Shown: positions 15,201 through 63,492 of the stretch, piece after piece
Layout of the letters: each line of letters begins with the position of its first letter
Position numbering within the stretch: position 1 is the first letter of the stretch
NCBI RefSeq assembly: GCF_027579695.1
Contig: NC_083587.1
Location: 45,931,232-45,995,231, forward strand
Length of the DNA: 64,000 nucleotides
Source of the DNA: Neoarius graeffei
Taxonomy: Eukaryota > Chordata > Actinopteri > Siluriformes > Ariidae
Direction of reading: 5' to 3'
The notes under the pieces: model-generated
Seen by the model: only the letters and a program-made list of their open reading frames with translations
What the model was told of the DNA's origin: nothing
The model's database searches: none
Made by a program: the position numbers and the translations under genes

Positions 15201-18200
15201 CTGTAGAACAGGATAAAGCGGCTACAGATAATGGATGGATGACCATATCAAAACTCAAAGCACAGAAATAGCATGTACACAGCAATTAGCAGAACTAAGA
15301 AATAATTCTCACTCACCGGTAAGCCTGAAATATCAGAATACTTTTTAGGAGGCTTCAGGGAAGGAGGAGCATCTATGTTATAATCTGTCAGAAATCAAGA
15401 GAGCTAAATTAAAAAGTTGCCATTTTGCAAAGCATAATTTCAGTTTAAGCGCGACTCAGACATACAGTTAGGATCACTGATTCTCCAGGGCAGCGCTCTC
15501 TCTGCTGCCAGAATCTGCTTCAGGTTCTTCCACGTCCGATTCTTTTTCCCTGCAGCCGCCCCGCCGATACCAGAGTGCTACGGGGGGGATGACGACACCC
15601 ACAACACAAGGAAATTAAAACATTTGCTTTACAATTATTAGAAGACACTTACAAGAATAATATACGGGAGCAAACTGAATTGTGTGCAAGATCTGAACAT
15701 CAGCATCATCATGCAGGTTCAGTTACAAGTCCGTATTTTTCAGTTGAAAAAACTCCGGACCCCAAAGCAGTTTGAAAGCTTGTCTGGAGACCTACCACAA
15801 AGTTGGGGTCTTTAAAAGACAGGGGCTTTGAAACCGGTTCTGCACCTACATCCACTGTAGTAACCAACTTTCCATCCACCAATTCCACTGGGAGAATCTG
15901 AAGGGAAGGGGGATGAAATTAAACGAAAAAAATAATAATAATAGCCAAGTCTTGAAACATGACGGATCTGGCAAGATGGCTATCAGCGATTTGTCTGCGT
16001 GACAAAATTCAAAATGTTAACCCAAACAAACACTAGGCCAGATTTAACACTCTTAGCTCAGATTTAAAGTTTAAAAAACTATTCCTGCCAAATATACTCC
16101 AACATTCAGAAAATAATATACTATACATCCTTATGAAACAATATTATAACCTGGACAGCAAAGCCATAAAATATGACATGGTGTGTGTGAGGTGGCCCAT
16201 AAATCACAAACAATCCATTAGGTAGCATTTGTCAAAATGTTCTTGCACGGTCACCACATCATCAAAACAGAGAAGAGCGCTCACACTTCCTGCACGGATA
16301 CACTCACCAACCACTTTATTAGGAACACCCATCCACCTGCAGTTCTCTAATCAGCCGATCCCTTGACAGCAGCACAATGTATAAAATCATGCAGATACAA
16401 ATTAAGAGCTTCAGTTAATGTTCACTTCAAACATCAGAATGCGGGGGTGTCGTGGCTCGGGTGGATGAGGCGCCATGCCATGGATCTGGGCGACCCGGGT
16501 TCGATTCCGGCCCGAGGTCATTTCCCGATCCCTCCCCGTCTCTCTCCCGCTCATTTCCTGTCTCTACACTGTCCTATCCAATAAAGGTGCAAAAAGCCCA
16601 AAAAATATCTTTAAAAAAACAAAACAAAACATCAGAATGGGAAAAATTGAGATCACTAACACTACGTTCACACTGCAGGCTGAAGTGACTCAAATCCGAT
16701 CTTTTCGCCCATATGTGACCTGTATCCGATCTTTTATTGACAATATGAACGACACAGATCCGATTTTTTCAAATCCGACCCAGGCCGTTTGGATATATGG
16801 TCCTAATTCCGATTCCTATCCGATCTTTTCATATGCGACTTCAGTCTGAACCGCCAGGTCGCGTTCATCCGACTTACACGTCATCAACAAGCCACAAACG
16901 TCACTATTCTGCGCTGAAGTAGGCGGCGGGTCTCTCAAAAAAAAGTTACAACAACATGGCGCATGACATCAATGTGACTCCACACCCACACGTTCCTTTG
17001 AACGGAGGTTGCAGTCATTACCCCGCAGAACGCCTGAGCCAAAACCCTTGCCCTCTTCCTTCTCAACCTCCTCCTTAACATCAGGCTATTGTGCTTGTTC
17101 TGGCTCCGTCGCAACAACAACTGCATCATCGCCAGGTACTCCATGCTGGCTACTGTCATACACAGGAAACTTTAGGTTACTTCCGTAAACACTGGCCATG
17201 CTCACTGCGTGTGACGTTGTCGTATCCTGCAATGCGCATGCGGAACACTTTTAGGTCGCTTTTCGTTCATACTGAGGATCACATACAAGTCGCATATATT
17301 TGTTAATGTGAACGACCTCACAAAAAAATCGGATTTCACAAAAAAATCGGAATTGAGCATTAAGCCTTGCAGTGTGAACGTAGTGTAAAAGTTCACCAAA
17401 TGCAACATCAGGAAAGTAGAAATTTTGAAAACACTTTCACAGTCATAACCCTACTGCTCACCTTCATTCCTCTTCGTTCCAATGCATACCTCCATCTCTC
17501 CAAACCCAGCCTCCTTTCTACTTTCACCACATATCACAATATCATCCACAAACATCATGTTCCATGGTGACTCTTGCCTCACTTTGGGGACTCCCTAAAG
17601 TGAATGACGCATGAAATGGAATGACGAATGACAGCTAGTGATTTGAACAATAAATGGTCCCTTGTCATTCAGATTCTTATAAATGGAATAACGATTGAAA
17701 CGTAGGTGGAATGACATGCTTTCAGCTCATGAAATGGAATGACATTGTTTCTAAGTGGAATGACATACTTTTAGGTTATGTTATCAGTGATATCACCTTT
17801 TACAAATGGAATGACAGCGTTTCCAGGTGGAATGACGTACTTTAAGCTAATGTTATCAGTGATATCCCCTTTTACAAATGGAATGACAGTGTTTTTAGGT
17901 GGAATGACATACTTTGAGGCAATGTTATCAGTGATATCACCTATAACCTAACCCTAACAACAATGTCATTCCATTTGTTAATTTGATATCACTGATAACA
18001 TTGCCTCAAAGTATGTCATTCCACCTAGAAACCTTATCATTCCATTTGTAAAAGGTGATATCACAAACATCATGTTCCATGGTGACTCTTGCCTCACTTT
18101 GGGGACTCCCTAAAGTGAATGACGCATGAAATGGAATGACGAATGACAGCTAGTGATTTGAACAATAAATGGTCCCTTGTCATTCAGATTCTTATAAATG

Positions 18201-19300
18201 GAATAACGATTGAAACATAGGTGGAATGACACGCTTTCAGCTCATGAAATGGAATGACATTGTTTCTAAGTGGAATGACATACTTTTAGGTTATCAGTGA
18301 TATCACCTTTTACAAATAGAATGACAGCGTTTCCAGGTGGAATGACATACTTTAAGCTAATGTTGTCAGTGATATCCCCTTTTACAAATGGAATGACAGT
18401 GTTTTTAGGTGGAATGACATACTTTGAGGCAATGTTATCAGTGATATCACCTATAACCTAACCCTAACCCTAGAAACAATCTCATTCCATTTGTTAATTT
18501 GATATCACTGATAACATTGCCTCAAAGTATGTCATTCCACCTAGAAACCTTATCATTCCATTTGTAAAAGGTGATACCACTGACAACATTAGCTCAAAGT
18601 AAGTCAATACATATAGAAACCCTGTCATTCCATTTGTAAAAGCTGATATCCCACCAAGCACCCACTTATCTTATCCTAGGGAGGTCTACAACTAAAGATT
18701 TCAATCGTTATTCCATTTGTAAGAATCTGCATGACAAGGGACCATTTATTGTTCAAATTTACTACCTGTCATTCGTCATTCCATTTCATGCGTCATTCAC
18801 TTTAGGGAGTCCTTCACTTTGTCCGTCAAGCTATCCATCACTATGGCAAACAAGAAAGGACTCAAAGCAGATCCTTGATGGAGTCCCACCTTCACCTTGA
18901 ACCATTCAGTCGGTCCAACTGCGCACCTCACTGCTGTCTCACTGTTCTCATACATGTCTTACACCACTCTGATATACTTCTTACAGGTTACACAAGTTTA
19001 CAGACCTTATAAACCATGCATTTTGTGCTTTTGGAGGAAAAAAATCTCATAAAAGCTAGAACCTGTGAACACTGGAGGTTTTACCTGAGTGCTGTGACTG
19101 ACCCCGGACACTGAGTGCACTTTCCTCCGTTTGTTGTTGCTGCTGTTCGGTTGTGTTAGCGGCTGAGCCGCCGGGCTCACAGCTCGTTTCTTCCCTTTAG
19201 CTTGAGCACTCGGTGCGACTAATACATGTTTGAGGTTATTATTAACCGCAGAACTTGACTCTCCTACAATAAACGACTCAACTGGATACTGCGCAGCCAT
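6097..19300 (-). CDS. ino80c: ino80c, INO80 complex subunit C (Ies6-type), five coding exons
   Basis: INO80C is the vertebrate counterpart of yeast Ies6, a non-catalytic subunit of the nuclear INO80 nucleosome-remodelling complex. Joining 19300-19085, 15897-15796, 15577-15466, 15384-15317 and 6228-6097 gives 630 nt, 209 codons plus stop, with no internal stop. The human protein, as I know it, has 192 residues. Conserved stretches include SKPLSFKDPNFV, NRTWKNLKQILAAERALPW, IDAPPSLKPPKKYSDISGL and NYTDPQTKLRF. The last two belong to the YL1 carboxy-terminal domain (about residues 147-185), and the protein ends LALRKATCIVP. The first 72 residues are low-complexity, basic and poorly conserved. 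The ATG at 19300 sits in a good context (A at -3, G at +4). All introns are GT-AG. Introns 2 and 3 are 218 and 81 bp; introns 1 and 4 are 3.2 and 9.1 kb and filled with transposons. Confidence 0.95.
6798..7350 (+). mobile_element. Element related to the Crypton-like copy at 23.5-24.3 kb
   Basis: From ATTATTATACGTACAGGACA to the block ending ATATCATGC this matches the inverted copy at 23549-24342 at both ends, but the interiors differ. It breaks off where the Tc1 element begins. The palindromic second arm seen in the other copy is absent here. No coding remnant is recognised in this copy. Confidence 0.6.
7353..8954 (+). mobile_element. Tc1-like transposon, full length but defective
   Basis: Long terminal inverted repeats start CAGTGGTGCTTGAAAGTTTG, and both ends are flanked by TA (7351-7352 and 8955-8956). 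The repeats extend over roughly 200 bp (compare 7353-7555 with 8750-8954). The length of 1602 bp is normal for Tc1-like elements. A second copy is at 44767. Confidence 0.95.
7720..8741 (+). pseudogene. Tc1-like (DD34E-type) transposase, broken
   Basis: Starts MARTKEISVDLRKSVVDAHQ, a paired-type helix-turn-helix region. It then runs through LPRSGPPTKI, KILWTDETKIEL (first catalytic Asp), QQDNDPKHTS (second Asp) and a C-terminal block MLWKDLKRAVHV, ending GGHTRY at the TGA at 8739-8741. Frameshifts near 7925-7990 and 8195-8210, plus in-frame stops (for example near 8370 and 8510), prevent a complete protein. It is a dead copy and no source of transposase. Confidence 0.92.
8957..9225. other. Unassigned sequence between two insertions
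   Basis: It follows the Tc1 copy but does not continue the Crypton-like palindrome, so one side of that element was probably lost. No coding signal is seen. Confidence 0.4.
9226..10197. mobile_element. TIR MITE with 4-bp ATAA flanks
   Basis: Inverted ends GGGTTGTTTTACAATCAGGG (left) and its complement at 10178-10197, flanked by ATAA at 9222-9225 and 10198-10201. It is 972 bp, AT-rich and has no open frame of note. Superfamily is not assigned; a 4-bp duplication is compatible with several. Confidence 0.7.
10447..10869 (+). CDS. 5' exon of a SWIM/YqaJ-type fish multicopy protein, partial
   Basis: The frame is open from 10447; the first in-frame ATG is at 10522, and an upstream start or exon is possible. 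After a basic stretch (KRKRKRSEMQK) come LPPGLFTD, LPDFGPHDLYTYVIKNPSPY, LKAYKSLDAYKYFVSGWV and PGAGGRHLITAK. From memory these match the amino-terminal part of repetitive teleost proteins that carry a SWIM zinc finger followed by a YqaJ-like nuclease domain. The frame reaches a donor-like AAG/GTTTGT at about 10869. The SWIM and YqaJ parts are absent, replaced by the palindrome. Function in this copy is unlikely. Confidence 0.6.
11061..11613. repeat. Giant inverted repeat, arms about 250 bp
   Basis: CTAGCTAATGTCAACAACAT at 11061 reads back as its complement ending at 11613. The arms are nearly identical, pairing the blocks ATTATGATCCGGCAGC and CGGATCCAGTGTAAATAG. The centre is GC-rich (GGAGCAAGCCGGAGCGCGCT), with additional direct and inverted copies of AATTTGAGGGGGAGCAAGCC. 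Open frames here are mirror images of one another and are not genes. Confidence 0.93.
11990..13446. other. ino80c intron 4 sequence without a recognised element
   Basis: AT-rich, with short CT and A/T runs. No repeat ends, splice pairs or domains are identified. Confidence 0.45.
13455..14370. mobile_element. Non-autonomous hAT-like element
   Basis: Inverted ends are TAGTGCTGTCAAGCGATTAA and TTTTTGACAGCACTA. Flanks GAAAAAAC (13447-13454) and GAAAAAAAC (14371-14379) fit an 8-bp duplication with one extra A. Both ends have clusters of TTAATCGCGATTAA-type short palindromes. No transposase domain is visible in the 916 bp. Confidence 0.75.
14380..14849. other. Intron sequence, no gene
   Basis: A short GACA run at about 14724-14740 is the only distinct feature. 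Confidence 0.45.
14860..15241 (+). mobile_element. Full-length V-SINE
   Basis: Head, core and tail are complete. Exact 10-bp duplication ACCATATCAA at 14850-14859 and 15242-15251. It lies 75 bp downstream of ino80c exon 4 (in gene direction), close to the donor side of intron 4. Confidence 0.93.
15317..15384 (-). CDS. ino80c: ino80c coding exon 4 (residues 144-166)
   Basis: Acceptor TTCTGACAG; completes the tyrosine codon and encodes NIDAPPSLKPPKKYSDISGL; donor GTGAGT. Confidence 0.93.
15466..15577 (-). CDS. ino80c: ino80c coding exon 3 (residues 107-144)
   Basis: Acceptor CCCCGTAG; starts HSGIGGAAAGKKNRTWKNL. It ends one base into a tyrosine codon before the donor GTATGT. Confidence 0.93.
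15796..15897 (-). CDS. ino80c: ino80c coding exon 2 (residues 73-106)
   Basis: Acceptor CCTTCAG; 34 codons ending DPNFV; donor GTAGGT. Phase 0 at both ends. Confidence 0.93.
16442..16626 (+). mobile_element. Short tRNA-derived SINE, second family
   Basis: The tRNA-like head has an A-box-like TGGCTCGGGTGGATGAGG and B box GGGTTCGATTCCGG. It is followed by CATTTCCTGTCTCTACACTG, an AATAAA and an A-rich tail. Exact 13-bp duplication AAACATCAGAATG at 16429-16441 and 16627-16639. Unrelated to the V-SINE core. Confidence 0.93.
16660..17385. mobile_element. PIF/Harbinger-type MITE with TAA target
   Basis: The TIR begins CACTACGTTCACACTGCA at both ends, flanked by TAA (16657-16659 and 17386-17388). 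Repeated AATCCGATTTTTT/ATCCGATC motifs lie just inside. A minus-strand arginine-rich stretch near 16935-17159 could be a decayed DNA-binding remnant, but I cannot confirm it. Confidence 0.8.
17397..19000 (-). pseudogene. Non-LTR retrotransposon reverse transcriptase fragment, split
   Basis: Outside the MITE at 17587-18813, the minus strand encodes VKVGLHQGSALSPFLFAIVM (RT motif B region) upstream and MMFVDDIVICGES (the catalytic xxDD box) downstream, followed by degraded thumb sequence. The two parts meet across the MITE target TCACTTTG. No complete element ends are seen. The clade is not assigned. Confidence 0.78.
17587..18813. mobile_element. MITE with 8-bp target duplication and internal 515-bp tandem duplication
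   Basis: Ends are GGGACTCCCTAAAGTGAATG and its near-complement ending AGGGAGTCCT, flanked by TCACTTTG (17579-17586 and 18814-18821). The interior is built of GGAATGAC and GTCATTCC motifs. The segment from about 17549 recurs 515 bp later at about 18064, nearly unchanged, and includes LINE sequence from outside the element. The duplication therefore post-dates insertion. Confidence 0.85.
19085..19300 (-). CDS. ino80c: ino80c coding exon 1 (residues 1-72)
   Basis: Begins MAAQYPVESF; contains the basic stretches KGKKR and NNKRRK, possible nuclear localisation signals. It ends at HSTQ, followed by the donor GTAAAA. Phase 0. Confidence 0.9.
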
Positions 19301-20485: not shown

Positions 20486-20960
20486 GCACACATTTGTAGT
20501 CTAATCACCTCTTGTGACCTGCTCGCAACAACGTCAATTCGGTGTAGGTATCAGATCTACAGATCGGCTCGGGCTCCGGCGCCTGCTGGTGATGTCACAC
20601 TATGTGATTGGCTGGACTGTTTGAAGGATGATGTACAAGTTTGTGGTTGGTCTGGACAAATTACGGAAGTAGTTATCGCGGGATTAGGTTTCGTGGGATT
20701 TTATGTCATGTTCATGTCACGCGCATTGCGTTTTTGTTGAACACAACTTCAAAATAAAAGCAATGCACATTCAGTCCATGCATGAGGTAAAATTAGAAAA
20801 TACGTTTATTTTGTAATTTCTAATTAACCTTACGTGGGCCGGTCAGAATGAATCAAAGGGCCGGATGCTCAGGTAAAATGCTCAGGTCTGCACTACAGCT
20901 ATCAAGAGTTGTACTGGTTGAGGGTGAGTTGGAGCCTGCCCCAGCTGACACTGGGACACA

Positions 20961-21338
20961 CTCATCTCATCTCATTATCTCGAGCTGCTTTATCCTGTTC
21001 TACAGGGTCGCAGGCAAGCTGGAGCCTATCCCAGCTGACTACGGGTGAAAGGCGGGGTACACCCTGGACAAGTCGCCAGGTCATCACAGGGCTGACACAT
21101 AGACACAGACAACCATTAAACACTCACATTCACACCTATGCTCAATTTAGAGTCACCAGTTAACCTAACCTGCATGTCTTTGGACTGTGGGGGAAACCGG
21201 AGCACCCGGAGGAAACCCACGCGGACACGGGGAGAACATGCAAACTCCGCACAGAAAGGCCCTCACCGGCCACAGGGCTCGAACCTGGATCTTCTTGCTG
21301 TGAGGTGACAGCGCTAACTACTACACCACTGTGCCGCC
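20961..21338 (-). mobile_element. V-SINE inserted in an older V-SINE
   Basis: Complete minus-strand copy. Direct 12-mers CACTGGGACACA (20949-20960) and CACTGGGCCACA (21369-21380) appear to be its target duplication. A 32-bp segment lies between its head and the right 12-mer; see the palindrome entry. V-SINE remnants before 20949 and after 21381 belong to the older host copy. Confidence 0.75.
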
Positions 21339-21416
21339 CAGATTAGTTCAATTTTACTCTAAATTGCTCACTGGGCCACACCTTTGAGCAATTTAGAGTA
21401 AAATTGAACTAATCTG
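21339..21416. repeat. Perfect 32-bp inverted repeat, 14-nt loop
   Basis: Arms at 21339-21370 and 21385-21416 are exactly complementary (CAGATTAGTTCAATTTTACT reads back at the far end). The arms extend outward imperfectly because SINE heads face each other on either side. Confidence 0.95.
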
Positions 21417-22317
21417 GGCGGCATGGTGGTGCAGTGGTTAGCTTTATGGTTAGGATTATGACATCATCAAGGTGACATATCAGGATCAGATTACTCAATA
21501 TTTTTCCTTTTCAGAGTGGTCTCCAGGGCAGCACGGTGGTGTTACCTCACAGCAAGAAGGTCCTGGGTTCAAGCCCAGCGGCCGATGAGGGCCTTTCTAT
21601 GTGGAGTTTGCATGTTCTCCCCATGTCTGTGTGGGTTTGCTCCAGTTTCCCCCAAAGGCTTCCTGATAGCCTTAAAAGACTGTCTTTAGTGATCTACAGT
21701 ATCTTCTCAGAAGACTCTCTGAGGACAGGTTCAAGAGTTTCCTCATAAACAAACAAACAAACAAACAAACCGAAATGCCTAATAAGGAGAAAGCAGGCAC
21801 TGACATCAAAATACCTGGCATCAGGATTATGACATCATCAAGGTGACACTGCTGGTCAGCAATGCTAGAATATCAATATTAATATCAGGATCAGATTACT
21901 CAATATCTTTCCTTTTCAGAGTGGCCCTCAGGGCGGCACGGTGGTGTAGTGGTTAGCACTGTCACCTCACAGCAAGAAGGTCCTGGGTTCCAGCCCAGCG
22001 GTCGATGAGGGCCTTTCTGTATGGAGTTTGCATGTTCTCCCTGTGTCTGTGTGGGTTTCCTCCGGGTACTCTGGTTTCCCCCACAGTCCAAAGACATGCA
22101 GGTTAGGCTAATTGGTGACTCTAAATTGACCGTAGGTGTGAATGTGAGTGTGAATGGTTGTTTGTCTCTGTGTCAGGCCTGTGATGACCTGGTGACTTGT
22201 CCAGGGTGTACCCCGCCTTTCGCCCGTAGTCAGCTGGGATAGGCTCCAGCTTGCCTGCGACCCTGTAGAACAGGATAAAGTGGCTAGAGATAATGAGATG
22301 AGATAATGGATGGATGG
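21417..22317 (+). mobile_element. Composite multi-head V-SINE flanked by one 14-bp duplication
   Basis: ATTGAACTAATCTG at 21403-21416 and again at 22318-22331 brackets the whole unit. Within it are a short head (21417-21443), a second partial head and core (about 21531-21655), and a complete V-SINE with 3' tail (about 21933-22317). Segments of the same non-SINE spacer separate them (GCTTCCTGATAGCC, AATGCCTAATAAGGAG, GATCAGATTACTCAATAT). The same spacer builds the array at 56.8-62.2 kb. Confidence 0.8.
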
Positions 22318-22331
22318 ATTGAACTAATCTG

Positions 22332-22418
22332 CATGTCTTTGGACTTTGAGAGGAAACCGGAGAACCCAGAGGAAACCTATACAGACATGAGGAGAACATG
22401 CAAACTCCACACACTGTC
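22332..22418 (-). mobile_element. Remainder of the older V-SINE
   Basis: CATGTCTTTGGACTTTGAG through GCAAACTCCACACA is V-SINE core on the minus strand. It joins to 21381-21416 if the composite insertion is removed. Confidence 0.7.
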
Positions 22419-35610: not shown

Positions 35611-38600
35611 TTATCCAGGACCGGGTCGCGGAGGCAGCAGTCTAAGCATGGAAGCCCAAACTTCCCTTTCCCCAGACACCTCGGCCAGCTCCTCGGGAAG
35701 AACACCGAGGCGTTCCCAGGCCAGCCGAGAGACATAGTCCCTCCAGCGTGTCCTGGGTCTTCCCCGGGGCCTCCTCCCGGGGGGACATGCCTGGAACACC
35801 TCCCCAGGGAGGCGTCCAGGAGGCATCCGAAAAAGATGCCCGAGCCACCTCAGCTGGTTCCTCTCGATGTGAAGGAGCAGCGGCTCTACTCCGAGCTCCT
35901 CCCGAGTGACTGTGCTTCTCACCCTATCTCTAAGGGAGCGCCCAGCCACCCTGCGAAGGAAACTCATTTCAGCCGCTTGTATCCGCGATCTTGTTCTTTC
36001 TGTCATTACCCAAAGCTCATGACCATAGGTGAGAGTCGGAACGTAGATCGACCGGTAAATTGAGAGCTTCGCCTTTTGGCTCAGCTCCTTCTTCACCACG
36101 ACGGACCGGTAAAGCGACCGCATCACTGCGGAGGCTGCACCGATCCGCCTGTCGATCTCACGCTCCATCCTTCCCTCACTCGTGAACAAGATCCCGAGAT
36201 ACTTAAACTCCTCCACTTGAGGCAGGACTTCTCCACCAACCTGGAGAGGGCAAGCCACCCTTTTCCGGTCGAGAACCATGGCCTCGGACTTGGAGGTGCT
36301 GATTCTCATCCCAGCCGCTTCACACTCGACTGCAAACCGCCCCAGTGCATGCTGAAGGTCCTGGTTTGAAGAAGCCAACAGGACAACATCATCCGCAAAA
36401 AGCAGAGATGAAATCCTGTGGTTCCCAAACAGGATTCCTTCCGGCCCCTGGCTGCGCCTAGAAATTCTGTCCATAAAAATTATGAACAGAACCGGTGACA
36501 AAGGGCAGCCCTGACGGAGTCCAACATGCACTGGGAACAGGTCTGACTTACTGCCGGCAATGCGAACCAGACTCCTGCTCCGTTCGTACAGGGACTGGAC
36601 AGCCCTTAGCAAAGAGCCCCGAACCCCATACTCCCGAAGCACCCCCCACAGAATACCACGGGGGACACGGTCGAATGCCTTCTCCAGATCCACAAAGCAC
36701 ATGTGGACTGGTTGGGCAAACTCCCATGAACCCTCGAGCACCCTATAAAGGGTATAGAGCTGGTCCAGTGTTCCGCGACCAGGACGAAAACCGCATTGTT
36801 CCTCCTGGATCCGAGGTTCGACTATTGGTCGAATTCTCCTCTCCAGTACCCTGGAGTAAACTTTCCCTGGGAGGCTGAGAAGTGTGATTCCCCTATAATT
36901 GGAGCACACTCTCCGGTCCCCTTTCTTAAAAAGAGGGACCACCACCCCAGTCTGCCACTCCAGAGGCACTGTCCCCGACCGCCACGCGATGTTGCAGAGG
37001 CGTGTCAACCAAGACAGCCCCACAACATCCAGAGACTTGAGATACTCAGGGCGGATCTCATCCACCCCCGGTGCCTTGCCACCGAGGAGCTTGCAAACCA
37101 CCTCAGTGACTTCGGCTTGGGTAATGGACGAGTCCACCTCTGAGTCATCAGCCTCAGTCTCCTCAGTGGAAGACATGACGGTGGGATTGAGGAGATCCTC
37201 AAAGTATTCCTTCCACCGCCCGACAATGTCCCCAGTCGAGGTCAACAGCTCCCCACCCGCACTGTAAACAGTGTTGGCAGAGTACTGCTTCCCCCTCCTG
37301 AGGCGCCGGACGGTTTGCCAGAATTTCTTCGAGGCCGACCGATAGTCCTTCTCCATGGCCTCCCCAAACTCCTCCCAGTTCCGAGTTTTTGCCTCCGCAA
37401 CTGCCCGAGCTGCAGCACGCCTGGCCTGCCGATACCCGTCGGCTGCCTCAGGAGTCCTGGAGGTCAACATGGCCCGATAGGACTCCTTCTTCAGCTTGAC
37501 GGCATCCCTTACTTCCGGTGTCCACCACCGGGTTCGGGGATTGCCGCCACGACAGGCACCGGAGACCTTGCGGCCACAGCTCCGAACAGCTGCATCCACA
37601 ATGGAGGTAGAGAACATGGTCCACTCAGACTCAATGTCCCCCGCCTCCCTCGGAAGCTGGGAAAAGCTCTCCCGGAGGTGGGAGTTAAAGACCTCCCCAA
37701 CAGAGTGCTCGGCCAGACGTTCCCAGCAGACCCTCACCATACGTTTGGGCCTGCCAGGTCTGTCCAGCTTCCTCCTCCGCCAGCGGATCCAACTCACCAC
37801 CAGGTGGTGATCAGTTGACAACTCAGCCCCTCTCTTCACCCGAGTGTCCAAGACATAGGGTCGGAGATCAGATGACACGACTACAAAGTCGATCATCGAC
37901 CTCCGACCTAAGGTGTCCTGGTGCCACGTGCACTTATGGACACCCCTATGCTCGAACATGGTGTTCGTTATGGACAAACTGTGACTAGCACAGAAGTCCA
38001 ATAACAAAACACCACTCGGGTTCAGATCGGGGAGGCCGTTCCTCCCAACCACGCCCCTCCAGGTGTCACTGTCATCGCCCACGTGAGCATTGAAGTCCCC
38101 CAGTAGCACAATGGAGTCCCCAGTCTGAGCACCCCTCAGTACCTCTCCCAGGGACTCCAAGAAGGCTGGATACTCTATACTGCTATTTGGCCCGTAGGCA
38201 CAAACAACAGCAAGAGCCCTCTCCCCAATCCGAAGGCGCAGAGAGGCGACCCTCTCGTTCACTGGGGTAAACTCCAACACATGGCGGCTGAGCTGGGGAG
38301 CTATAAGGAAGCCCACACCAGCCCGCCGCCGCTCACCACGGGCGACTCCAGAGAAGTGGAAAGTCCAGCCCCTCTCAAGGAGCTGGGTTCCAGAGCCCAA
38401 GCTGTGCGTGGAGGTGAGCCCGACTATCTCTAGCCGGTACCTCTCAACCTCCCGCACAAGCTCAGGCTCCTTCCCCCCCAGCGAAGTGACATTCCATGTC
38501 CCAACAGCCAGCCGCTGTGTCCGGGGATCAGGTCGTCGAGGCCCCTGCCTTCGACTGCCACCCAATCCACACTGCACCAAACCCCTACTGCTACCTCTGT

Positions 38601-38784
38601 GGGTGGTGAACCCACAGGAGGTCGGGCCCACGTCACCTCTTCGGGCTGAGCCCGGCCGGGCCCCATGGGCAAAGGCCCGGCCACCAAGCGCTCGCATACG
38701 AGCCCCAACCCCGGGCCTGGCTCCAGGGTGGGGCCCCGGCTGCGTCCTACCGGGCGACGTCACGGTCCTGGATTTTTCCTCCAT
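35611..38784 (-). CDS. Rex3-type endonuclease/reverse transcriptase, intact ORF (1057 aa)
   Basis: A single uninterrupted frame encodes the retrotransposition enzyme. It nicks target DNA with an AP-type endonuclease and copies element RNA there. Endonuclease landmarks are GTWNV (about 95-99), [10 protein letters not shown] (228-236), SMIDFVVVS (296-304) and STDHHLVV (323-330). The usual catalytic Glu region reads GLTSTHSLG (122-130), so that residue is not obvious. RT landmarks are [11 protein letters not shown] (567-577), [21 protein letters not shown] (697-708), [13 protein letters not shown] (755-767), the catalytic FADD (796-799) and [11 protein letters not shown]. The C-terminal region is [11 protein letters not shown]. 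The first 90 residues are proline/arginine-rich without a known domain. The intact frame suggests a recent insertion; activity is unproven. Confidence 0.95.
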
Positions 38785-48523: not shown

Positions 48524-48910
48524 ATGCCTTCGCGTTGTGTTGCCGGCTTTTGCTCCAAAACCCACAAGGATGGGGTAAGTTTATTCAAGTTTCCCAGAGA
48601 TCCCGAGCTGCATGCGAAGTGGGTGAAGCAAGTCAGGCGGACTCGTGACAAGTGGGAGCCCTCACCAACATCCGTCCTGTGCTCTGAACACTTCGATTTG
48701 GATTGTTTTGACACCCTTCCCAGCTTAAAAGAATCTCTTGGGTGTTCAGTTCAGCACAAACATGTGTTGCTACCATCAGCAGTGCCTACAGTATTCCGGA
48801 GGGGGTCTACTAGTAGCTATGCCGGATCCAGCAGTCGCCTGGGACAAGGCGACTCCTCCAAAGACAGTCCTCCTGTCAGAACATGTGTTGAGAAACGACA
48901 TAAGATAAAG
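48524..48910 (+). CDS. THAP-domain exon of the TTAA-target element
   Basis: The ATG at 48524 starts MPSRCVAGFCSK. THAP zinc-finger landmarks are C-x4-C at residues 5 and 10, KWVKQVRR, WEPSPTSVLCSEHF (C-x2-H) and a terminal AVPTVF motif near residue 89, so the whole roughly 90-residue domain is present. A serine-rich linker follows and the exon ends at a donor AAG/GTACGT near 48911. THAP domains bind specific DNA. Here it would be the transposase DNA-binding part or a derived protein. Confidence 0.85.
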
Positions 48911-49469
48911 GTACGTAGAGCTATAGAGTGCTCCGACATGATGCTAAAAATAGTAACCATGTGGTCTGCACGGCCATCTTGGAAGTGACTCGCTCCAGAG
49001 CGCTCATAGAGTACACATCATAGAGTACACATTCATGATAATCATAAATGTAATCATAAAGTCGGCGTGATATTAGTCATGCATTTGCTTGTGAAAGCTT
49101 GCGGCTTTCATGTAACCGCCGCCTAGCAATGAGAGGCAAAGGGTAAAGAGGGTAGTCTATCATAGATTCTATTCAGAAGAGTACATGATTGCTTAAAAAT
49201 TAGGTATTTTAACAATTTGCATCTGTTTTGTGATTATCATGACACTTGTGTGTTATATAGAACTGTATGTCTTATCAGCACATCGAGGATCTTCCACCGG
49301 AGGCTTTAGCAAGTACTCGTAGCAACACTACACTTTACCCTTTGCCATGTGTTGTTAGGGAACGGTAGCAAGTACCCCGATGACCGACTTCAAGAATATC
49401 TAGAAAAAATTTAGAAATTATACTTTCCAAAAGTCATTTGAGCTGAGTGTATTCCATTTATATTGTAGG

Positions 49470-50729: not shown

Positions 50730-53700
50730 AGACACAGAGACACAGACAACCATTCACACTCACATTCACACCTACGGTCAATTTAGAGCCACCAATTAAC
50801 CGAACCTGGATGTCTTTGGACTGTCGGGGAAACCCACGCAGACATGTGAAGAACATGCAAACTCCACACAGAAAGGCCCTTTTTGGCCACTGGGCTCGAA
50901 CCCAGGACCTTCTTGCTGTGAGGAGACAGTGCTAATCACTACACCACCATGCTGCCTCATCCATTATCTTTAGTCACTTATCCTGTTCTACAGGGTCGCA
51001 GGCAAGCTGCAGCCTATCCAAGCTGACTATAGGTGAGACGCGGGGTACACTTTGGACAAGTCGCCAGATCATTGCAGGGCTGACATATAGAAACAAACAA
51101 CCATTCACACTCACATTCACACCTACGGTCAATTTAGAGCCACCAATTAACCGAACCTGGATGTCTTTGGACTGTCGGGGAAACCGGATGAAACCCATGC
51201 AGACATGGGGAGAACATGCAAACTCCACACAGAAAGGCCCTCGTCGGCCACTGGGCTTGAACCCAGGACCTTCTTCCTGTGAGGTGACAGTGCTAACCAC
51301 TACACCACCGTGCCACCTCATCCATTATCTCTAGCCGCTTATCTTGCTCTACAGGGTCGCAGGCAAGCTGGAGCCTATCCAAGCTGACTATAGGTGAGAG
51401 GTGGGGTACACCCTGGACAAGTCGCCAGATCATCGCAAGGCTGACACATAGAAACAAACAACCATTCACACTCACATCTATGGTCAATTTAGAGCCACCA
51501 ATTAACCGAACCTGGATGTCTTTGGACTGTCGGGGAAACCGGACAAAACCCACGCAGACATGTGGAGAACATGCAAACTCCATACAGAAAGGCCCTTGTC
51601 GGCCACTGGGCTCGAACCCAAGACCTTCTTGCTGTGAGGAGACAGTGCTAACCACTACACCACCGTGCCACCTCATCCTTCCATCCATCCATTATCTCTA
51701 GCCGCTTATCCTGTTCTATAGGGTCGCAGGCAAGCTGGAGCCTATCCAAGCTGACTATAGGTGAGACGCGGGGTACACCTTGGACAAGTCGCCAGATCAT
51801 CGCAGGGCTGACATATAGAAACAAACAACCATTCACACTCACATTCACACCTACGGTCAATTTAGAGTCACCAATTAACCGAACCTGGATGTCTTTGGAC
51901 TGTCGGGGAAACCCATGCAGACATGTGGAGAACATGCAAACTCCACACAGAAAGGCCCTTTTTGGCCACTGGGCTCAAACCCAGGACCTGCTTGCTGTGA
52001 GGAGACAGTGCTAATCACTACACCACCATGCTGCCTCATCCATCCATCCATCCATCCATCCATCCATCCATTATCTGTAGTCATTTATCCTGTTCTACAG
52101 GGTCGCAGGCAAGCTGCAGCCTATCCAAGCTGACTATGGGCGAAAGGCGGGGTACACCCTGTACAAGTCGCCAGATCATCGCAGGGCTGACATATAGAAA
52201 CAAACAACCATTCACACTCACATTCACACCTACGGTCAATTTAGAGTCACCAATTAACCGAACCTGGATGTCTTTGGACTGTCAGGGAAACCCACACAGA
52301 CATGTGGAGAACATGCAAACTCCACACAGAAAGGCCCTTTTTGGCCACTGGGCTCGAACCCAGGACCTTCTTGCTGTGAGGAGACAGTGCTAATCACTAC
52401 ACCACCATGCCGCCTCATCCATCCATCCATCCATCCATCCATCCATTATCTGTAGTCACTTATCCTGTTCTACAGGGTCGCAGGCAAGCTGCAGCCTATC
52501 CCAGCTGACTACGGGCGAAAGCCGGGGTACACCCTGGACAAGTCGCCAGATCATCGCAGGGCTGACACATAGAAACAAACAACCATTCACACTCACATTC
52601 ACACCTACGGTCAATTTAGAGCCACCAATTAACCGAACCTGGATGTCTTTGGACTGTCAGGGAAACCCACGCAGACATGTGAAGAACATGCAAACTCCAC
52701 ACAGAAAGGCCCTTTTTGGCCACTGGGCTCGAACCCAGGACCTTCTTGCTGTGAGGAGACAGTGCTAATCACTACACCACCATGCCGCCTCATCGATCCA
52801 TCCATTATCTGTAGTCACTTATCCTGTTCTACAGGGTCGCAGGCAAGCTGGAGCCTATTCAAGCTGACTATAGGTGAGACGCGGGGTACACCTTGGACAA
52901 GTTGCCAGATCATCGCAGGGCTGACACATAGACACAGACAACCATTCACACTCACATTCACACCTATGGTCAATTTAGAGCCACCAATTAACCGAACCTG
53001 GATGTCTTTGGACTGTCGGGGAAACCCACGCAGACATGTGAAGAACATGCAAACTCCACACAGAAAGGCCCTTTTTGGCCACTGGGCTCGAACCCAGGAC
53101 CTTCTTGCTGTGAGGAGACAGTGCTAATCACTACACCACCATGCCGCCTCATCCATCCATCCATCCATTATCTGTAGTCACTTATCCTGTTCTACAGGGT
53201 CGCAGGCAAGCTGGAGCCTATCCCAGCTGACTATGGGCAAAAGGCGGGGTACACCCTGGACAAGTCGCCAGATCATCGCAGGGCTGACACATAGAAACAA
53301 ACAACCATTCACACTCACATTCACACCTACGGTCAATTTAGAGCCACCAATTAACCGAACCTGGATGTCTTTGGACTGTCGGGGAAACCCACGCAGACAT
53401 GTGAAGAACATGCAAACTCCACACAGAAAGGCCCTTTTCGGCCACTGGGCTCGAACCCAGGACCTGCTTGCTGTGAGGAGACAGTGCTAATCACTACACC
53501 ACCATGCTGCCTCATCCATTATCTGTAGTCACTTATCCTGTTCTACAGGGTCGCAGGCAAGCTGGAGCCTATCCCAACTGACTGTGGGCGAGAGGCACAG
53601 AGACAAACGATTCACACTCACATTCACACCTATGGTCAATTTAGAGCCACCAATTAACCGAACCTGGATGTCTTTGGACTGTCGGGGAAACCCACGCAGA

Positions 53701-55899: not shown

Positions 55900-56599
55900 A
55901 GTTGAATGAATGCCAAATCTGATTGGCTGCGCTGCCGGTATGCAGCGGTGTAATCTTTCATTCTGTGAAGTTTCTCCTTTAGACGGAACCGTTATCTGTG
56001 ATTTCTCTTCCGGGTTGCGTCGGTGGGCGGGGACAGAGTTTCCTCCGACTCCTCCTGCTCTTCCAGCAGGCAGCGCAGCGGCTCTTCAGCGCGAGCCGTG
56101 TAGCGCGCGCTCAAGCCCGGCTCGTTTATTTCGCAATTCGTGCGGAGAGGAGTTGAGAATTTGGACGACGCCATTTTATGAAGTCGAATATTCACGACGG
56201 GTGGGTCATTGTGCGCGAAAAATCTTTCTCGAACTCATATTTTTAAGGTCTCGTGTGTGTTTTTTTTCCTCTCAGAACGAGAGAGCTCCTCATCTTCACC
56301 GGGACGCGACAAGGCTAACGGCCCTGAGCGGCTTTTACCTCAGTGAGGCTGCTGGAAACGCGGCGCTTTAAATTAACCCACACAGATAACGGATAACGGA
56401 AAGAACAGACCGGTTTCTCGAGTTTTTCTAGTGTTTTTGTTTGTTTATTTGTTTGTTTGTTTGTTTTTCCTGGTGAAGTGAAGGACATTTTGGTCGCACG
56501 CCGCTGTCACGAGGAGGAAAATGCCACTTAGTCAACATCTCTAAGGTTCCTGAGAGGAAAACAGCCCCGGTGCGGAGCGCCAAGCCTTCACTTTTAAAG
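55900..56599 (+). promoter_or_regulatory. CpG-rich promoter and probable non-coding first exon of a plus-strand gene
   Basis: In contrast to its surroundings the block is GC-rich with many CpGs (GGGTTGCGTCGGTGGGCGGGG, AGCGCGAGCCGTG). It contains no TATA box and ends TTTTAAAG/GTAACT, a consensus donor at 56599/56600. No long credible ORF begins here, so the exon would be 5' UTR. Known mammalian order puts GALNT1 head to head with INO80C, which this layout reproduces; no GALNT1 coding exon is in the window. Confidence 0.55.
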
Positions 56600-58938
56600 G
56601 TAACTCACCGCTTTAACACACGGTTTGCTTGGTTTTCATTTCTCCACCCCGTCGTGAGGAACTTGTAATCCAAGCTTCCTTCACAAAACCGCTTCTCTTT
56701 TCACTGGAAAAGATATAAAATAAGCTTCCCGCCTAATTTCAGTACCTCAGAACTCACTCTTAGCTCGAGTATCAGATCAGATGTTCATTTACATTGAGGT
56801 CTAAGGACTATTTAATGGTGTTGTCAGTGTTTAACCAGGTGATGGCAGTTAAAGAGCTTCCTGTTAGCTTCCTAATAGCCTTAAGAGATTGTCTGTCTTT
56901 AGTGACCTACAGTATCTTTTTCTCAAGAAGACTCTCTGAGAAAGAGTTTCTTCGTGAACAAACTGAAATGCCTAATAAGGAGAAAGCAAGCACTGGCATC
57001 AGGATTATGACGTCATCAGCTGGTCAGTAACGCCAGATTATCAATCTCAGGATCAGATTACTCAATATTTTTACTCTTCAGAGCAGTCCCCAGGACGGCA
57101 TGGTGGTGTCGTGGTTAGCACTGTTGCCTCACAGCAAGAAGGTCCTGGGTTCGAGCCCAGCGGCTGACGAGGGCCTTTTTGTATGGAGTTTGCATGCTGT
57201 CCGTGTTGGTTTCCTCCGGATGCTCTGGTTTTTTTTTTTTTTTTTTTAAGAGAGAAACCTTTCTTCGTCATATGCACATTTCAAGCACAGTGAAATTCAT
57301 CCTCTGCATTTAACCCATCTGAAGCAGTGAACACACGCACACACTCGGAGCAGTGGGCAGCCACACCAGAGCGCCCGGTGAGCAGTCAGGGTTTCGGTAC
57401 CTTGCTCAAGGGCACCTCAGCCCAAGGCCGCCCCACGTCAACCTAACTGCATGTCTTTGGATTGTGGGGGAAACCCACACAGACACGGAGAGAACATGCA
57501 AACCCCACACAGAAAGGCCCTCGCCGGGTTTGAACCCGGAACCTTCTACCTGTAGTGGTGCTAACCACTACACCACCGTGCCGCTGGTTTCCCCCCAAAG
57601 GCTTCCTAATAGCCTTAAGAGATTGTCTGTCTTTAGTGACCTACAGTATCTTTTTCTCAAGAAGACTCTCTGAGAAAGAGTTTCTTCGTGAACAAACTGA
57701 AATGCCTAATAAGGAGAAAGCAAGCACTGGCATCAGGATTATGACGTCATCAGCTGGTCAGTAACGCCAGATTATCAATCTCAGGATCAGATTACTCAAT
57801 ATTTTTACACGTCAGAGCGGTCCCCAGGACGGCATGGTGGTGTCGTGGTTAGCACTGTTGCCTCACAGCAAGAAGGTCCTGGGTTCGAGCCCAGCGGCTG
57901 ACGAGGGCCTTTTTGTATGGAGTTTGCATGCTGTCCGTGTTGGTTTCCTCTGGGTGCTCTGGTTTTTTTTTTTTTTAAGAGAGAAACCTTTCTTCGTCAT
58001 ATGCACATTTCAAGCACAGTGAAATTCATCCTCTGCATTTAACCCATCTGAAGCAGTGAACACACGCACACACTCGGAGCAGTGGGCAGCCACACCAGAG
58101 TGCCCGGGGAGCAGTCAGGGTTTCGGTACGTTGCTCAAGGGCACCTCAGCCCAAGGCCGCCCCACGTCAACCTAACTGCATGTCTTTGGATTGTGGGGGA
58201 AACCCACACAGACACGGGGAGAACATGCAAACTCCACACAGAAAGGCCCTCGCCGGCCGCTGGGTTTGAACCCGGAACCTTCTACCTGTAGTGGTGCTAA
58301 CCACTACACCACCGTGCCGCTGGTTTCCCCCCAAAGGCTTCCTAATAGCCTTAAGAGATTGTCTGTCTTTAGTGACCTACAGTATCTTTTTCTCAAGAAG
58401 ACTCTCTGAGAAAGAGTTTCTTCGTGAACAAACTGAAATGCCTAATAAGGAGAAAGCAAGCACTGACATCAGGATTATGACGTCATCAGCTGGTCAGTAA
58501 CGTCAGATTATCAATCTCAGGATCAGATTACTCAATATTTTTACTCTTCAGAGCGGTCCCCAGGACGGCATGGTGGTGTCGTGGTTAGCACTGTTGCCTC
58601 ACAGCAAGAAGGTCCTGGGTTCGAGCCCAGCGGCTGACGAGGGCCTTTTTGTATGGAGTTTGCCTGCTGTCCGTGTTGGTTTCCTCCGGGTGCTCTGGTT
58701 TTTTTTTTTTTAAAGAGAGAAACCTTTCTTCGTCATATGCACATTTCAAGCACAGTGAAATTCATCCTCTGCATTTAACCTATCTGAAGCAGTGAACACA
58801 CTCGGAGCAGTGGGCAGCCACACCAGAGCGCCCGGGGAGCAGTCAGGGTTCCGGTACCTTGCTCAAGGGCACCTCAGCCCAAGGCCGCCCCACGTCAACC
58901 TAACTGCATGTCTTTGGATTGTGGGGGAAACCCACACA

Positions 58939-59484
58939 TACCCCTTTTCCACCAAATCAGTTCCATGGCTGGCTTGGAGCCAGTGCTGGTTCACAACTCG
59001 TTCAACTTGCGAGCCAGCTGAGAACCAGTTTGCTTTTCCATAGCTCGCGGAGCTACGTCAGTTACGTCGCTGTATACGTCAGTTACGTCGCTGTATACGT
59101 CATTACGTTGCTGTATACGTCAGTTACGTCGCTACGTTTGCATAAACCTTGGCGCGAATATTGAAGCAAAAACAGCACGGAAGCAGCAGCAGCAACAACA
59201 ACAACAATAATAATGGATGACTTCGCGTTTGTACAGCTGCTGCTTCTCGTCGCTTAAAAATGGCGATCTTTCGCAGTCTTGTTATTGTTGTTGGTCTTAA
59301 CAACTCCGCCCCCCCGCTGACATAAGCGGTTCTTTCCTCTGGCCCATCAGAGAGTTGGTGCTAGCCTGGAACCGGTTTTTCTGGCCCCAGAGCCAGTTCT
59401 TTGTCAGTGGAAACGGAGAACCCGGTTCCAAACTAAGCACTGGCCCTGAACCAGCCCTGGAACTGCTTTGGTGGAAAAGGGGCA
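58939..59484. mobile_element. TIR element inserted in an array unit, 3-bp ACA duplication
   Basis: Ends TACCCCTTTTCCACCAAA and TTTGGTGGAAAAGGGGCA. ACA at 58936-58938 and 59485-59487. Neighbouring units lacking it (for example near 57475 and 58205) show the empty site CACACAGACACGG. Inside are four copies of a 20-21-bp unit with TACGTCAGTTACGTCGCTG and a short frame MDDFAFVQLLLL. Superfamily is uncertain. Confidence 0.85.
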
Positions 59485-60222
59485 ACAGACACAGGGAGAA
59501 CATGCAAACCCCACACAGAAAGGCCCTTGCTGGCCGCTGGGTTTGAACCCGGAACCTTCTACCTGTAGTGGTGCTAACCACTACACCACCATGCCGCTGG
59601 TTTCCCCCCAAAGGCTTCCTAATAGCCTTAAGAGATTGTCTGTCTTTAGTGACCTACAGTATCTTTTTCTGAAGAAGACTCTCTGAGAAAGAGTTTCTTC
59701 GTGAACAAACTGAAATGCCTAATAAGGAGAAAGTAAGCACTGACATCAGGATTATGACGTCATCAGCTGGTCAGTAACGCCAGATTATCAATCTCAGGAT
59801 CAGATTACTCAATATTTTTACTCATCAGAGCGGTCCCCAGGACGGCATGGTGGTGTCGTGGTTAGCACTGTTGCCTCACAGCAAGAAGGTCCTGGGTTCG
59901 AGCCCAGCGGCCGACGAGGGCCATTTTGTATGGAGTTTGCATGCTGTCCGTGTTGGTTTCCTCTGGGTGCTCTGGTTTTTTTGTTTTTTTTTTTTAAGAG
60001 AGAAACCTTTATTCGTCATATGCACACTTCAAGCACAGTGAAATTCATCCTCTGCATTTAACCCATCTGAAGCAGTGAACCACACTCGGAGCAGTGGGCA
60101 GCCACACCAGAGCGCCCGGGGAGCAGTCAGGGTTTCGGTACCTTGCTCAAGGGCACCTCAGCCCAAGGCTGCCCCACGTCAACCTAACTGCATGTCTTTG
60201 GATTGTGGGGGAAACCCACACA

Positions 60223-60745
60223 TACCCCTTTTCCACCAAATCAGTTCCATGGCTGGTTCGGAGCCAGTGCTGGTTCACAACTCGTTCAACTTGCGAGCCA
60301 GCTGAGAGCCAGTTTGTTTTTCCATAGCTCGCGGAGCTACGTCAGTTACGTCGCTGTATACGTCAGTTACGTCGCTGTATACGTCAGTTACGTCGCTACG
60401 TTTGCATAAACCTTGGCGCGAATATTGAAGCAAAAACAACACGGAAGCAGCAGCAGCAACAACAACAATAATAATAATGGATGACTTCGCGTTTGTAAAG
60501 CTGCTGCTTCTTGTCGCTTAAAAATGGCGATCTTTCGCGGTCTTATTGTTGTTGGTCTTAACAACTCCGCCCCCCCGCTGACGTAAGCGGTTCTTTCCTC
60601 TGGCCCAGCAGAGAGTTGGTGCTAGCCTGGAACCGGTTTTTCTGGCCCCAGAGCCAGTTCTTTGTCAGTGGAAACGGAGAACCCGGTTCCAAACTAAGCA
60701 CTGGCCCCGAACCAGCCCTGGAACTGCTTTGGTGGAAAAGGGGCA
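60223..60745. mobile_element. Second copy of the same TIR element at the same site
   Basis: Same junctions in a different array unit (ACA at 60220-60222 and 60746-60748). It has one fewer of the TACGTCAGTTACGTCGCTG repeats. Because position within the unit is identical, it arose by duplication of the unit, not by a second insertion. Confidence 0.85.
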
Positions 60746-62231
60746 ACAGACACGGGGAGAACATGCAAACTCCACACAGAAAGGCCCTTGCCAGCCGCTG
60801 GGTTCAAACCCGGAACCTTCTACCTGTAGTGGTGCTAACCACTACACCACCGTGCCGCTGGTTTCCCCCCAAAGGCTTCCTAATAGCCTTAAGAGATTGT
60901 CTGTCTTTAGTGACCTACAGTATCTTTTTCTCAAGAAGACTCTCTGAGAAAGAGTTTCCTCGTGAACAAACTGAAATGCCTAATAAGGAGAAAGCAAGCA
61001 CTGGCATCAGGATTATGACGTCATCAGCTGGTCAGTAACGCCAGATTATCAATCTCAGGATCAGATTACTCAATATTTTTACACATCAGAGCGGTCCCCA
61101 GGACGGCATGGTGGTGTCGTGGTTAGCACTGTTGCCTCACAGCAAGAAGGTCCTGGGTTCGAGCCCAGTGGCCGATGAGGGCCTTTTTGTATGGAGCTTG
61201 CATGCTGTCCATGTTGGTTTCCTCCGGGTGCTCTGGTTTCCCCCAAAGGCTTCCTAATAGCCTTAAAAGATTGTCTTTAGTGATCTACAGTATCTTTCTC
61301 AAGAAGACTCTCTGAGGACAGGTTCAAGAGTTTCCTCATAAACAAAAAAGAAGAAAAGAAAGTAAGCACAGCTTTATTCATCACACACTTGTGAAATTTC
61401 CTCTCTGCATTTAACCCATCTGAAGCAGTGAGAACACACACGTGTGAGAAATGAGCGCGCACACATACTCAGAGCAGTGGGCAGCCATGCTAACAGCACC
61501 CGGGGAGCAGTTGGGAGTTAGGTGCCTCACTCAAGGGCACCTCAGCCCAAGCCATATTAACCTAACCTGCATGTCTTTGGATTGTAGGGGAAACCGGAGC
61601 ACCCGGGGGAAACCCACGCAGATACGGGGAGAACATGCAAACTCCACACAGAAGGGCCCTTGCCAGCTGCTGGGTTCGAACCCAGAACCTTCTTGCTGTG
61701 AGGCGACCATGCTAACCACTACACAACTGTGCCGCCCCAAACAAACAAACTGGAATGCCTAATAAGGAGAAAGCAAGCACTGACATTAAAATGCCTGGCT
61801 TCAGGATTATGACGACATCAAGGCGACACTGCTGGTCAGTAATGCCAGATTATCCATATCAGGATCAGATTACTCAATATTTTTACTTTTCAGAGTGGTC
61901 CCCAGGACGGCATGGTGGTGTCGTGCTGAGCACTGTCGCCTCACAGTAAGAAGGTCCTGGGTTCGAGCCCAGCGGCCGACGAGGGCCTTTCTGTATGGAG
62001 TTTGCATGTTCTCCCTGTGTCTGTGTGGGTTTCCTCCGGGTGCTCTGGTTTCCCGTACAATCCAAAGACATGCAGGTTAGGTTAATTGGTGGCTCTAAAT
62101 TGACCGTAGGTGTGAGTGTGAATGGTTGTTTGTGTCAGCCCTGTGTACCCCACCTCTTGCCCATAGTCAGCTGGGATAGGCTCCAGCTTGCCTGTGACTC
62201 TTTAGGACAGGATAAGCGGCGACAGATAATG

Positions 62232-63492
62232 GATGGGAGTGGTCCCCATATCAAATTAGGCCATCAAAGTGACATAAATTCTTGGTTGGGAGACCGGCAA
62301 CAAACACTACAAGTTCGACCCTGACAAATCATTGTTCAGGTTCTTGCGTGTGTCGTCGGGGAGGAGGGTCAGGAAATTGGCGATCAAGGAGCACGTCGTA
62401 GGAGTTTTCAAACTAAGAGAGAAAACTAGAAAAATTCTGACGTGCTTGACTTTCATCAGGGTGTTATTGGGCGTCTTAGATGCCACATCGCTGTTCTTTG
62501 ATTATGTCACGCGAAAAGGTTTGTCCTTTTCATTGGATATTTCTCGATAAAATCATGTCAAAATCTGGCTGAATTAGTGTAGTGTAGTCTAGTCCCAGCG
62601 TAAGTCGGCAATCAGGCTCATGGGATGTGACAGCTGCTGCAACGTCTCCTGGATTTGATTACACTTGAAGCTCGGCGTTTTTGAAGATTCAGTATGGTGC
62701 TTGATTGATCATGCAGTCGGATGATGCTCTTGCAGCTCGGTAATCACTCACATGTCCATTAGGAGATTACAGAGCGTGTTTGGCTGTCTGGACAGCGCCA
62801 GCCAGGATCTGATCTGGACAAATCCAGATTTAATATTAGTAAAAGGTTTGATATTCGTAAAAGAGAATGAGGCTTCCAATATTATTTTTTTCTTCTGTTT
62901 AGTTACATAAGCTGTTGATGTGACTGTCACCTGTGTGTTTATTTCACTCATCCAACAACCGGAGGGAATAAAACAGAGGTGTAGTGATGGGACGATTTGG
63001 AGAAGGCCATTGATTTGATTTAAAAGGGAATGAATTAAGAGTTGAGACAATTCACAACAAATAGATTATCAATTACAATTGTTCATAAAATGCATTATTG
63101 TTATTACTGAAAAAAGTGCAAACATTCATATTTTATAACTGATGTATAAATAGGATTGGAAGGTGATATTTCTGTCATCGTTTACAAATAAACGTTAGAC
63201 CGACCCCAAATTCAGACCAAACTTAATTACTTATCAGTCTAAATCTAATGCTACTGTATCATTTTTTTATTGTTGTAGCAGATTCAGTGATATTGTAAAA
63301 TCAAATTGAATCAAAATTGTGTTGGATGGAAGCGTGAGGTTTACACTATGGCTGTCATGAATATCATTTTCAACAGAGGACAGCGGCTCAGTGCATGAAG
63401 AGTAGTGGTACTACTATTACTACTAAGGCCATCCTTAAAAAAAAATCCGTTTCCTGTCCACCGGGTGAGCAAAAAAATTTTCGGGAGGGAGG

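Follow-up and report, generated by a model that had tools for sequence, protein, structure and literature searches.

A composite SINE block bounded by a single 14-bp duplication in the catfish Neoarius graeffei, and its relation to a SINE-derived tandem array

Here we describe a 901-bp block of DNA (21417-22317) within a 64,000-nucleotide stretch of the Neoarius graeffei genome (NC_083587.1, positions 45,931,232 to 45,995,231, hereafter the window), and we consider it well supported by the sequence that a single retroposition moved the whole of it: one 14-bp duplication encloses the block, SINE termini stand at both of its ends, and no duplication surrounds either of the two inner stretches tested. 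We take the block to be a real single retroposition of a composite, and to represent not a new SINE family but a SINE insertion of the template-switched or 5′-extended kind. Its source appears to be a tandem array lying elsewhere in the window, at 56.8-62.2 kb, or a close paralogue of that array. The features on which the argument draws are collected in Table 1.

Table 1. Parts of the composite block, its neighbouring elements and the tandem array (positions in the window)
Feature	Positions	Strand	Evidence or remark
Antisense SINE	20964..21341	-	imperfect 11/12 duplication CACTGGG[A/C]CACA at 20949-20960 and 21369-21380
5′ extension of the antisense SINE	21342..21368	-	inverted copy of the block's left flank
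Target-site duplication, left copy (ATTGAACTAATCTG)	21403..21416	+	exact match, motif search, duplication scan
Head 1, SINE nt 1-27 only	21416..21442	+	25/27 against young consensus; G21416 ambiguous between head and duplication
Filler of 9 nt between head 1 and spacer A	21443..21451	+	TTTATGGTTAG, once in the window
Spacer A, putative copy of the source SINE's host flank	21452..21525	+	lacks about 34 nt present in spacer B; contains TTTTT and TTTT
Head 2, SINE nt 1 to about 159 with internal deletions	21526..21657	+	one deletion within the first 40 nt
Non-SINE segment (about 166 nt), putative left part of the source-locus flank	21658..21822	+	sequence match to array
Spacer B, adjoining the SINE, putative right part of the source-locus flank	21823..21930	+	sequence match to array
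Complete SINE with tail, possible chimera	21931..22317	+	shared array-SINE sites confined to the part before about 22175
Target-site duplication, right copy (ATTGAACTAATCTG)	22318..22331	+	exact match, motif search, duplication scan
Older SINE interrupted by the block	22332..22413, left continuation 21371-21402	-	alignment to old-type consensus
Tandem array, six spacer-head units	56842..62236	+	same window, about 35-40 kb from the block, same orientation
Terminal full SINE of the array	61905..62236	+	12-bp duplication GAGTGGTCCCCA at 61893-61904 and 62237-62248

A preliminary description, made from the letters alone, had placed a 14-mer at the borders of a 901-bp block, and the two copies of this 14-mer, ATTGAACTAATCTG, are indeed identical (14/14). 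Allowing up to one mismatch, the 14-mer has three matches in the window, against the 0.03 expected from shuffles of the window; the third copy is inverted and lies at 21339-21352. Between the two direct copies, the block starts at base 1 or 2 of a SINE head, one G being ambiguous, and stops after the short-repeat tail of a SINE. The contents that the description had listed, namely two partial heads, non-SINE spacers and a complete SINE with its tail, are recovered in the part-by-part layout of Table 1. It had further held that the block splits an older SINE which reads continuously once the block is removed, and this too was confirmed: after excision in silico, the flanks align across the junction to the old-type SINE consensus at 101/121 ungapped positions.

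The description's central proposal, retroposition of the whole block as a single unit, finds good support in a duplication scan of 16 rows, which included two stretches inside the block. The scan returned 14 nt for the whole block, where the maximum among 200 random partners was 10 nt; the last SINE taken by itself gave 5 nt, and the stretch from head 2 to the tail gave 4 nt. Since the tested inner pieces lack duplications of their own, the block would have arrived as one unit. Random partners reached 26-27 nt in some other rows of the scan because they fell inside other SINEs. Among the other SINEs scanned, seven rows gave duplications of 9-14 nt and five gave no clear exact duplication; no clear one (5-7 nt) was seen for the array's antisense SINE or for rows 20101, 34744 and 19535.

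The non-SINE parts of the block have their counterpart in the array, which the preliminary description had left unmentioned and whose order is collinear with that of the block. Positions 21657-21822 are identical to 61248-61345 plus 61739-61802 at 152/160 sites, and positions 21823-21927 are identical to 61803-61902 at 90/99; it is thus the DNA to the left of the array's terminal SINE that matches spacer B, and the DNA to the right of the same SINE is absent from the block. Because that terminal SINE bears its own 12-bp duplication, GAGTGGTCCCCA, spacer B can be read as host flank, and on these matches we regard the spacers as the host flank of one SINE insertion and as no component of any SINE family. 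Head 2 ends at its 3′ side in the tandem-duplication junction TTTCCCCCAAAGGCTTCCT, starting at 21646. Of the forms of the junction TTTCCCCC(C)AAAGGCTTCCT that were searched for, the window holds five copies in the array, one in the block and no others; since block and array have it in common, the simplest order puts the tandem duplication before the block. The flank segment is unbroken in the block and split in the array by an antisense SINE at about 61346-61738; most simply, the block was copied before that antisense SINE entered the array, as a copy without it. The shared junction and the segment free of the interrupting SINE together argue that the block is an RNA-mediated copy of the array or of a close paralogue. 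The array itself consists of tandem units with a partial SINE and of a terminal unit that reaches the SINE end, as SINE-derived satellites do.

Several other repeats were seen in the window. An element of about 520-540 bp with inverted ends (CCCCTTTTCCACCAAA / TTTGGTGGAAAAGGGG) has two copies inside array units, at about 58940-59482 and 60225-60742 as judged by eye, and looks like a non-autonomous DNA transposon amplified along with the array. The array units also contain, in antisense orientation, SINEs of a second type that resemble the first in the head and differ in the 3′ part (57232-57583 and equivalents, and 61346-61736, by eye). On the minus strand, 50731-55815 holds a head-to-tail SINE tandem array with 15 SINE matches and periods of 363, 351 and 351 bp, and at 17732-18648 there are 72-bp tandem repeats whose neighbouring stretches form long perfect inverted repeats with each other.

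That array and block share one window, about 35-40 kb apart and in the same orientation, is also what a DNA-level event would produce, be it a segmental duplication, a gene conversion or a repair patch from the array, with the 14-mer present by chance. We hold such an event to be very improbable, given the exact 14-bp duplication at the block ends with only 0.03 matches expected, the coincidence of those ends with SINE termini, and the lack in the block of the array's outer flanks, on account of which segmental duplication was rejected. The preliminary description's suggestion of a multi-head V-SINE type finds no support, the spacers matching the DNA that flanks a single SINE within an array. 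Membership of the block in a multi-head SINE family that propagates and amplifies by itself is favoured by a terminal SINE complete with head and tail and by the existence of one composite with its own duplication; all the same we judge this reading improbable. The other occurrences in the window are confined to one tandem array whose outer flanks mark the locus of origin, head 1 breaks off after its 27th nucleotide, and the first 40 nt of head 2 include a deletion. Because of these last two features, neither upstream head amounts to a whole promoter of the kind that tRNA-derived SINEs have. The 64 kb contain one copy of a head-spacer-head-full-SINE composite with its own duplication. Confinement of every other copy to one duplicated region without its own target duplications had been named beforehand as telling against movement as a unit; the other copies in the window do all lie within a single duplicated region, yet the block carries a duplication of its own and is without that region's outer flanks.

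Exact probes were also run against other sequence collections. A 22-base spacer pattern matched 0 prokaryote contigs, which says little about fish, and 0 viral contigs matched either a SINE-head pattern of 26 bases or a junction pattern of 19 bases, again with little bearing on fish. Matches of a 19-base spacer pattern to 4 viral contigs were set aside as chance, the similarity to the block being confined to stretches of 18-21 bases.

Whether the array at 56.8-62.2 kb was itself the parent depends on how its units relate to those of the block. Within the block, spacer-head units A and B differ at 14/192 sites; unit A differs from array unit U5 at 24/178 sites and from U6 at 18/192, and unit B differs from U6 at 21/235. 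In a tree, the block pair stands apart from all six array units with a bootstrap value of 94. Because the block units are closest to each other, U5-U6 as the direct parent would need either homogenisation or a paralogous source. At the head start, all six array units have GGACGGCAT, and the last SINE of the block has GGGCGGCAC, like the young consensus. Homogenisation within the array after copying would explain the divergence between block and array, and a paralogous source array elsewhere would explain it too. On sequence comparison, we therefore name as the source the array or a close paralogue of it.

The terminal SINE may be of mixed origin. The array SINE and the young consensus disagree at 32 sites, and of these the block shares with the array SINE 12/22 before about 22175 and 0/10 after it (Fisher 0.004; 0.010 with a scanned breakpoint). 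When young-versus-old sites alone are used, the scanned-breakpoint p is 0.09. The young consensus was built from 9 copies and the old from 5, some of them partial, with the array at 50.7-55.8 kb and other SINE matches excluded. In its 5′ part, the last SINE is identical to the array SINE at 217/235 sites, to the young consensus at 226/244 and to the old consensus at 230/245, and because of these three figures plain identity singles out no array source for the 5′ part; in its 3′ part, it is identical to the young consensus at 107/109 and to the old at 105/110. The pattern of shared sites is suggestive of a chimera with a breakpoint at about 22169-22181.

Taking these observations together, we lean towards the view that the block is one target-primed reverse-transcription insertion of a 5′-extended and probably chimeric SINE, formed by template switching. 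The sequence supports a first series of steps, in which a SINE would have entered host DNA, making the duplication GAGTGGTCCCCA; the head of that SINE plus host flank would then have been duplicated in tandem; and a segment of the array, or of a close paralogue, running from spacer through partial head, flank and spacer to full SINE, would have been copied elsewhere, where it came to be bounded by a new 14-bp duplication within an older SINE. As for the copying itself, we infer that a LINE reverse transcriptase may have started at the tail of a SINE RNA of the young type. Near 22169-22181, where the SINE bodies are homologous, it would have changed template to an RNA spanning the array and copied this leftward, before a final jump to about nt 27 of a SINE RNA head and on to that head's 5′ end. 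Switching at both ends would explain at once why the block starts with a SINE head, why that head breaks off in a 27-nt jump and why the last SINE looks mixed. Head 1 and the filler could alternatively have arisen by a later deletion. Splicing was rejected as the source of the 27-nt jump, no clear splice pair being visible by eye. Elsewhere in the window, the minus strand at 35611-38784 holds an open reading frame of 1057 amino acids with endonuclease and reverse transcriptase domains, and an open reading frame with a THAP domain lies at 48524-48988.

The preliminary description had envisaged a single transcript starting at an upstream head. In this account, one pol III transcript would run from an upstream array head through the spacers to the terminal tail and be retroposed whole, the 5′ gaps being later deletions or features of the source. 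Such a transcript is possible: the block spans a SINE head start to a SINE tail, the array is collinear with it, the 5′ unit of the block carries several small deletions anyway, and the chimera signal is suggestive at most. Pol III is stopped by runs of four or more T, and pol II is unaffected by short T runs. The sense strand of the block has TTTTT at block position 85 and TTTT at positions 92 and 497, and a run of four T is absent from 9/10 ordinary SINEs examined in the window; these runs weaken the single transcript, as do the head that stops after 27 nt and a possibly chimeric last SINE whose 3′ part shares none of the ten sites with the array SINE. We consider read-through by pol III unlikely, if quite credible, and template switching would appear to fit somewhat better.

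The T runs would be no obstacle if the main template had been a pol II transcript of the array neighbourhood, with the 5′ SINE head gained by a template jump. This possibility specifies the middle RNA of the template-switching account and is not opposed to it, and we put it forward tentatively, as a possibility with somewhat more in its favour than read-through by pol III. Just upstream of the array on its sense side, a CpG-rich stretch at 56000-56599 (observed/expected 1.33 and 1.09) is possibly a promoter; yet the array itself contains stretches with comparable or higher values (1.53 at 59000-59299 and 1.18 at 60200-60499), neither a gene nor a transcript was found, and the one open reading frame tested there, at 55910-56371, has no Pfam match.

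To the left of the block lies an antisense SINE (20964-21341), which differs from the young consensus at 14/373 sites and has an exact duplication of 4 nt without its 5′ extension and of 7 nt with it. Positions 21339-21370 form an inverted repeat (32/32) with 21385-21416, which reaches up to the head of the block, includes the 14-mer and was likewise absent from the preliminary description. The resulting palindrome, 21313-21442, derives from the extension of the antisense SINE and points to priming by a cDNA end on a nearby SINE head. We suppose that the antisense SINE landed later, less than 50 bp to the left of the block; judging from the anatomy of the site, the end of its cDNA (GCCGCCC) may have primed on the block's GGGCGGC and been extended outward to the nick, which would have produced the palindrome. 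The simplest order is the block first and the antisense SINE second, and if so, the left junction of the block predates that insertion. Four matches to Rfam microRNA families over the palindrome were rejected as hairpin artefacts; all score below the gathering score, and the searched stretch has 14 such weak matches.

What makes the locus informative is that the composite lies in one 64-kb window with an array closely related to its source, and that the steps can be ordered there through duplications and later insertions. It links SINE-derived satellites and retroposition, processes that are usually handled separately, and it offers a concrete candidate, in a fish, for template switching guided by SINE homology and carried out by a LINE enzyme. 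If such events are recurrent, they would be a route for moving host flank and for seeding new tandem arrays; as a single case, the block is a curiosity. A broader idea, which we regard as speculative and rather unlikely to hold, is that SINE-derived arrays in this genome repeatedly seed composite retroposons, which would start on a SINE RNA, move by homology into an array RNA and close on a SINE head, and which would thereby spread host flank and satellite units and found new arrays; in the putative cDNA-end priming of the antisense SINE, homology would have guided the same kind of step, with DNA as the target.

Among known systems, the first to compare is the V-SINE superfamily, a label that we apply to these SINEs on a presumed resemblance. 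Ogiwara and colleagues are said to have described it in 2002 as a single-head unit without spacers, having a tRNA-like head and a conserved central stretch. The SINEs of the window may be like it in head and central stretch, and they have a short-repeat tail; the block composite, with its several heads and its spacers, is unlike it. Stretches in the SINE heads are, by eye, what we take to be A- and B-box-like sequences, and ARAGORN found 0 tRNA genes in the window, as is possible for diverged SINE heads. In 5′ transduction by SVA or L1, upstream flanking DNA travels with the element. The block is similar in that upstream DNA moved with the element, and differs in that this upstream DNA holds another partial SINE head derived from a tandem duplication. 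Among the titles and openings of abstracts listed by a literature search in which subscription papers are thinly covered, none mentions, for fish, the retroposition of part of a SINE-derived array, which weighs little. Template switching has been invoked for the origin of new SINE families in carp, according to the accessible part of PMC2653535. The squamate SINE-derived satellites of PMC10702118, as the accessible part of that paper presents them, have a terminal unit reaching the SINE end, and the array at 56.8-62.2 kb is likewise built from SINE parts with a longer terminal unit that extends to the SINE terminus; unlike those satellites, its unit includes host flank, and a segment of it, or of a close paralogue, appears to have been retroposed elsewhere. 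The nearest described case that we found is that of the primate Alu/LINE-1 chimeras, for which the accessible text of PMC13174262 describes one duplication around the composite and a mostly full-length Alu. Like them, the block has a single duplication enclosing a SINE fused to other retrotransposed RNA; unlike them, as far as that text goes, it has a SINE of the same kind at both ends and a middle of host flank and partial head from an array, its proposed 3′ breakpoint lies inside homologous SINE sequence, and the enzyme here would not be the mammalian L1.
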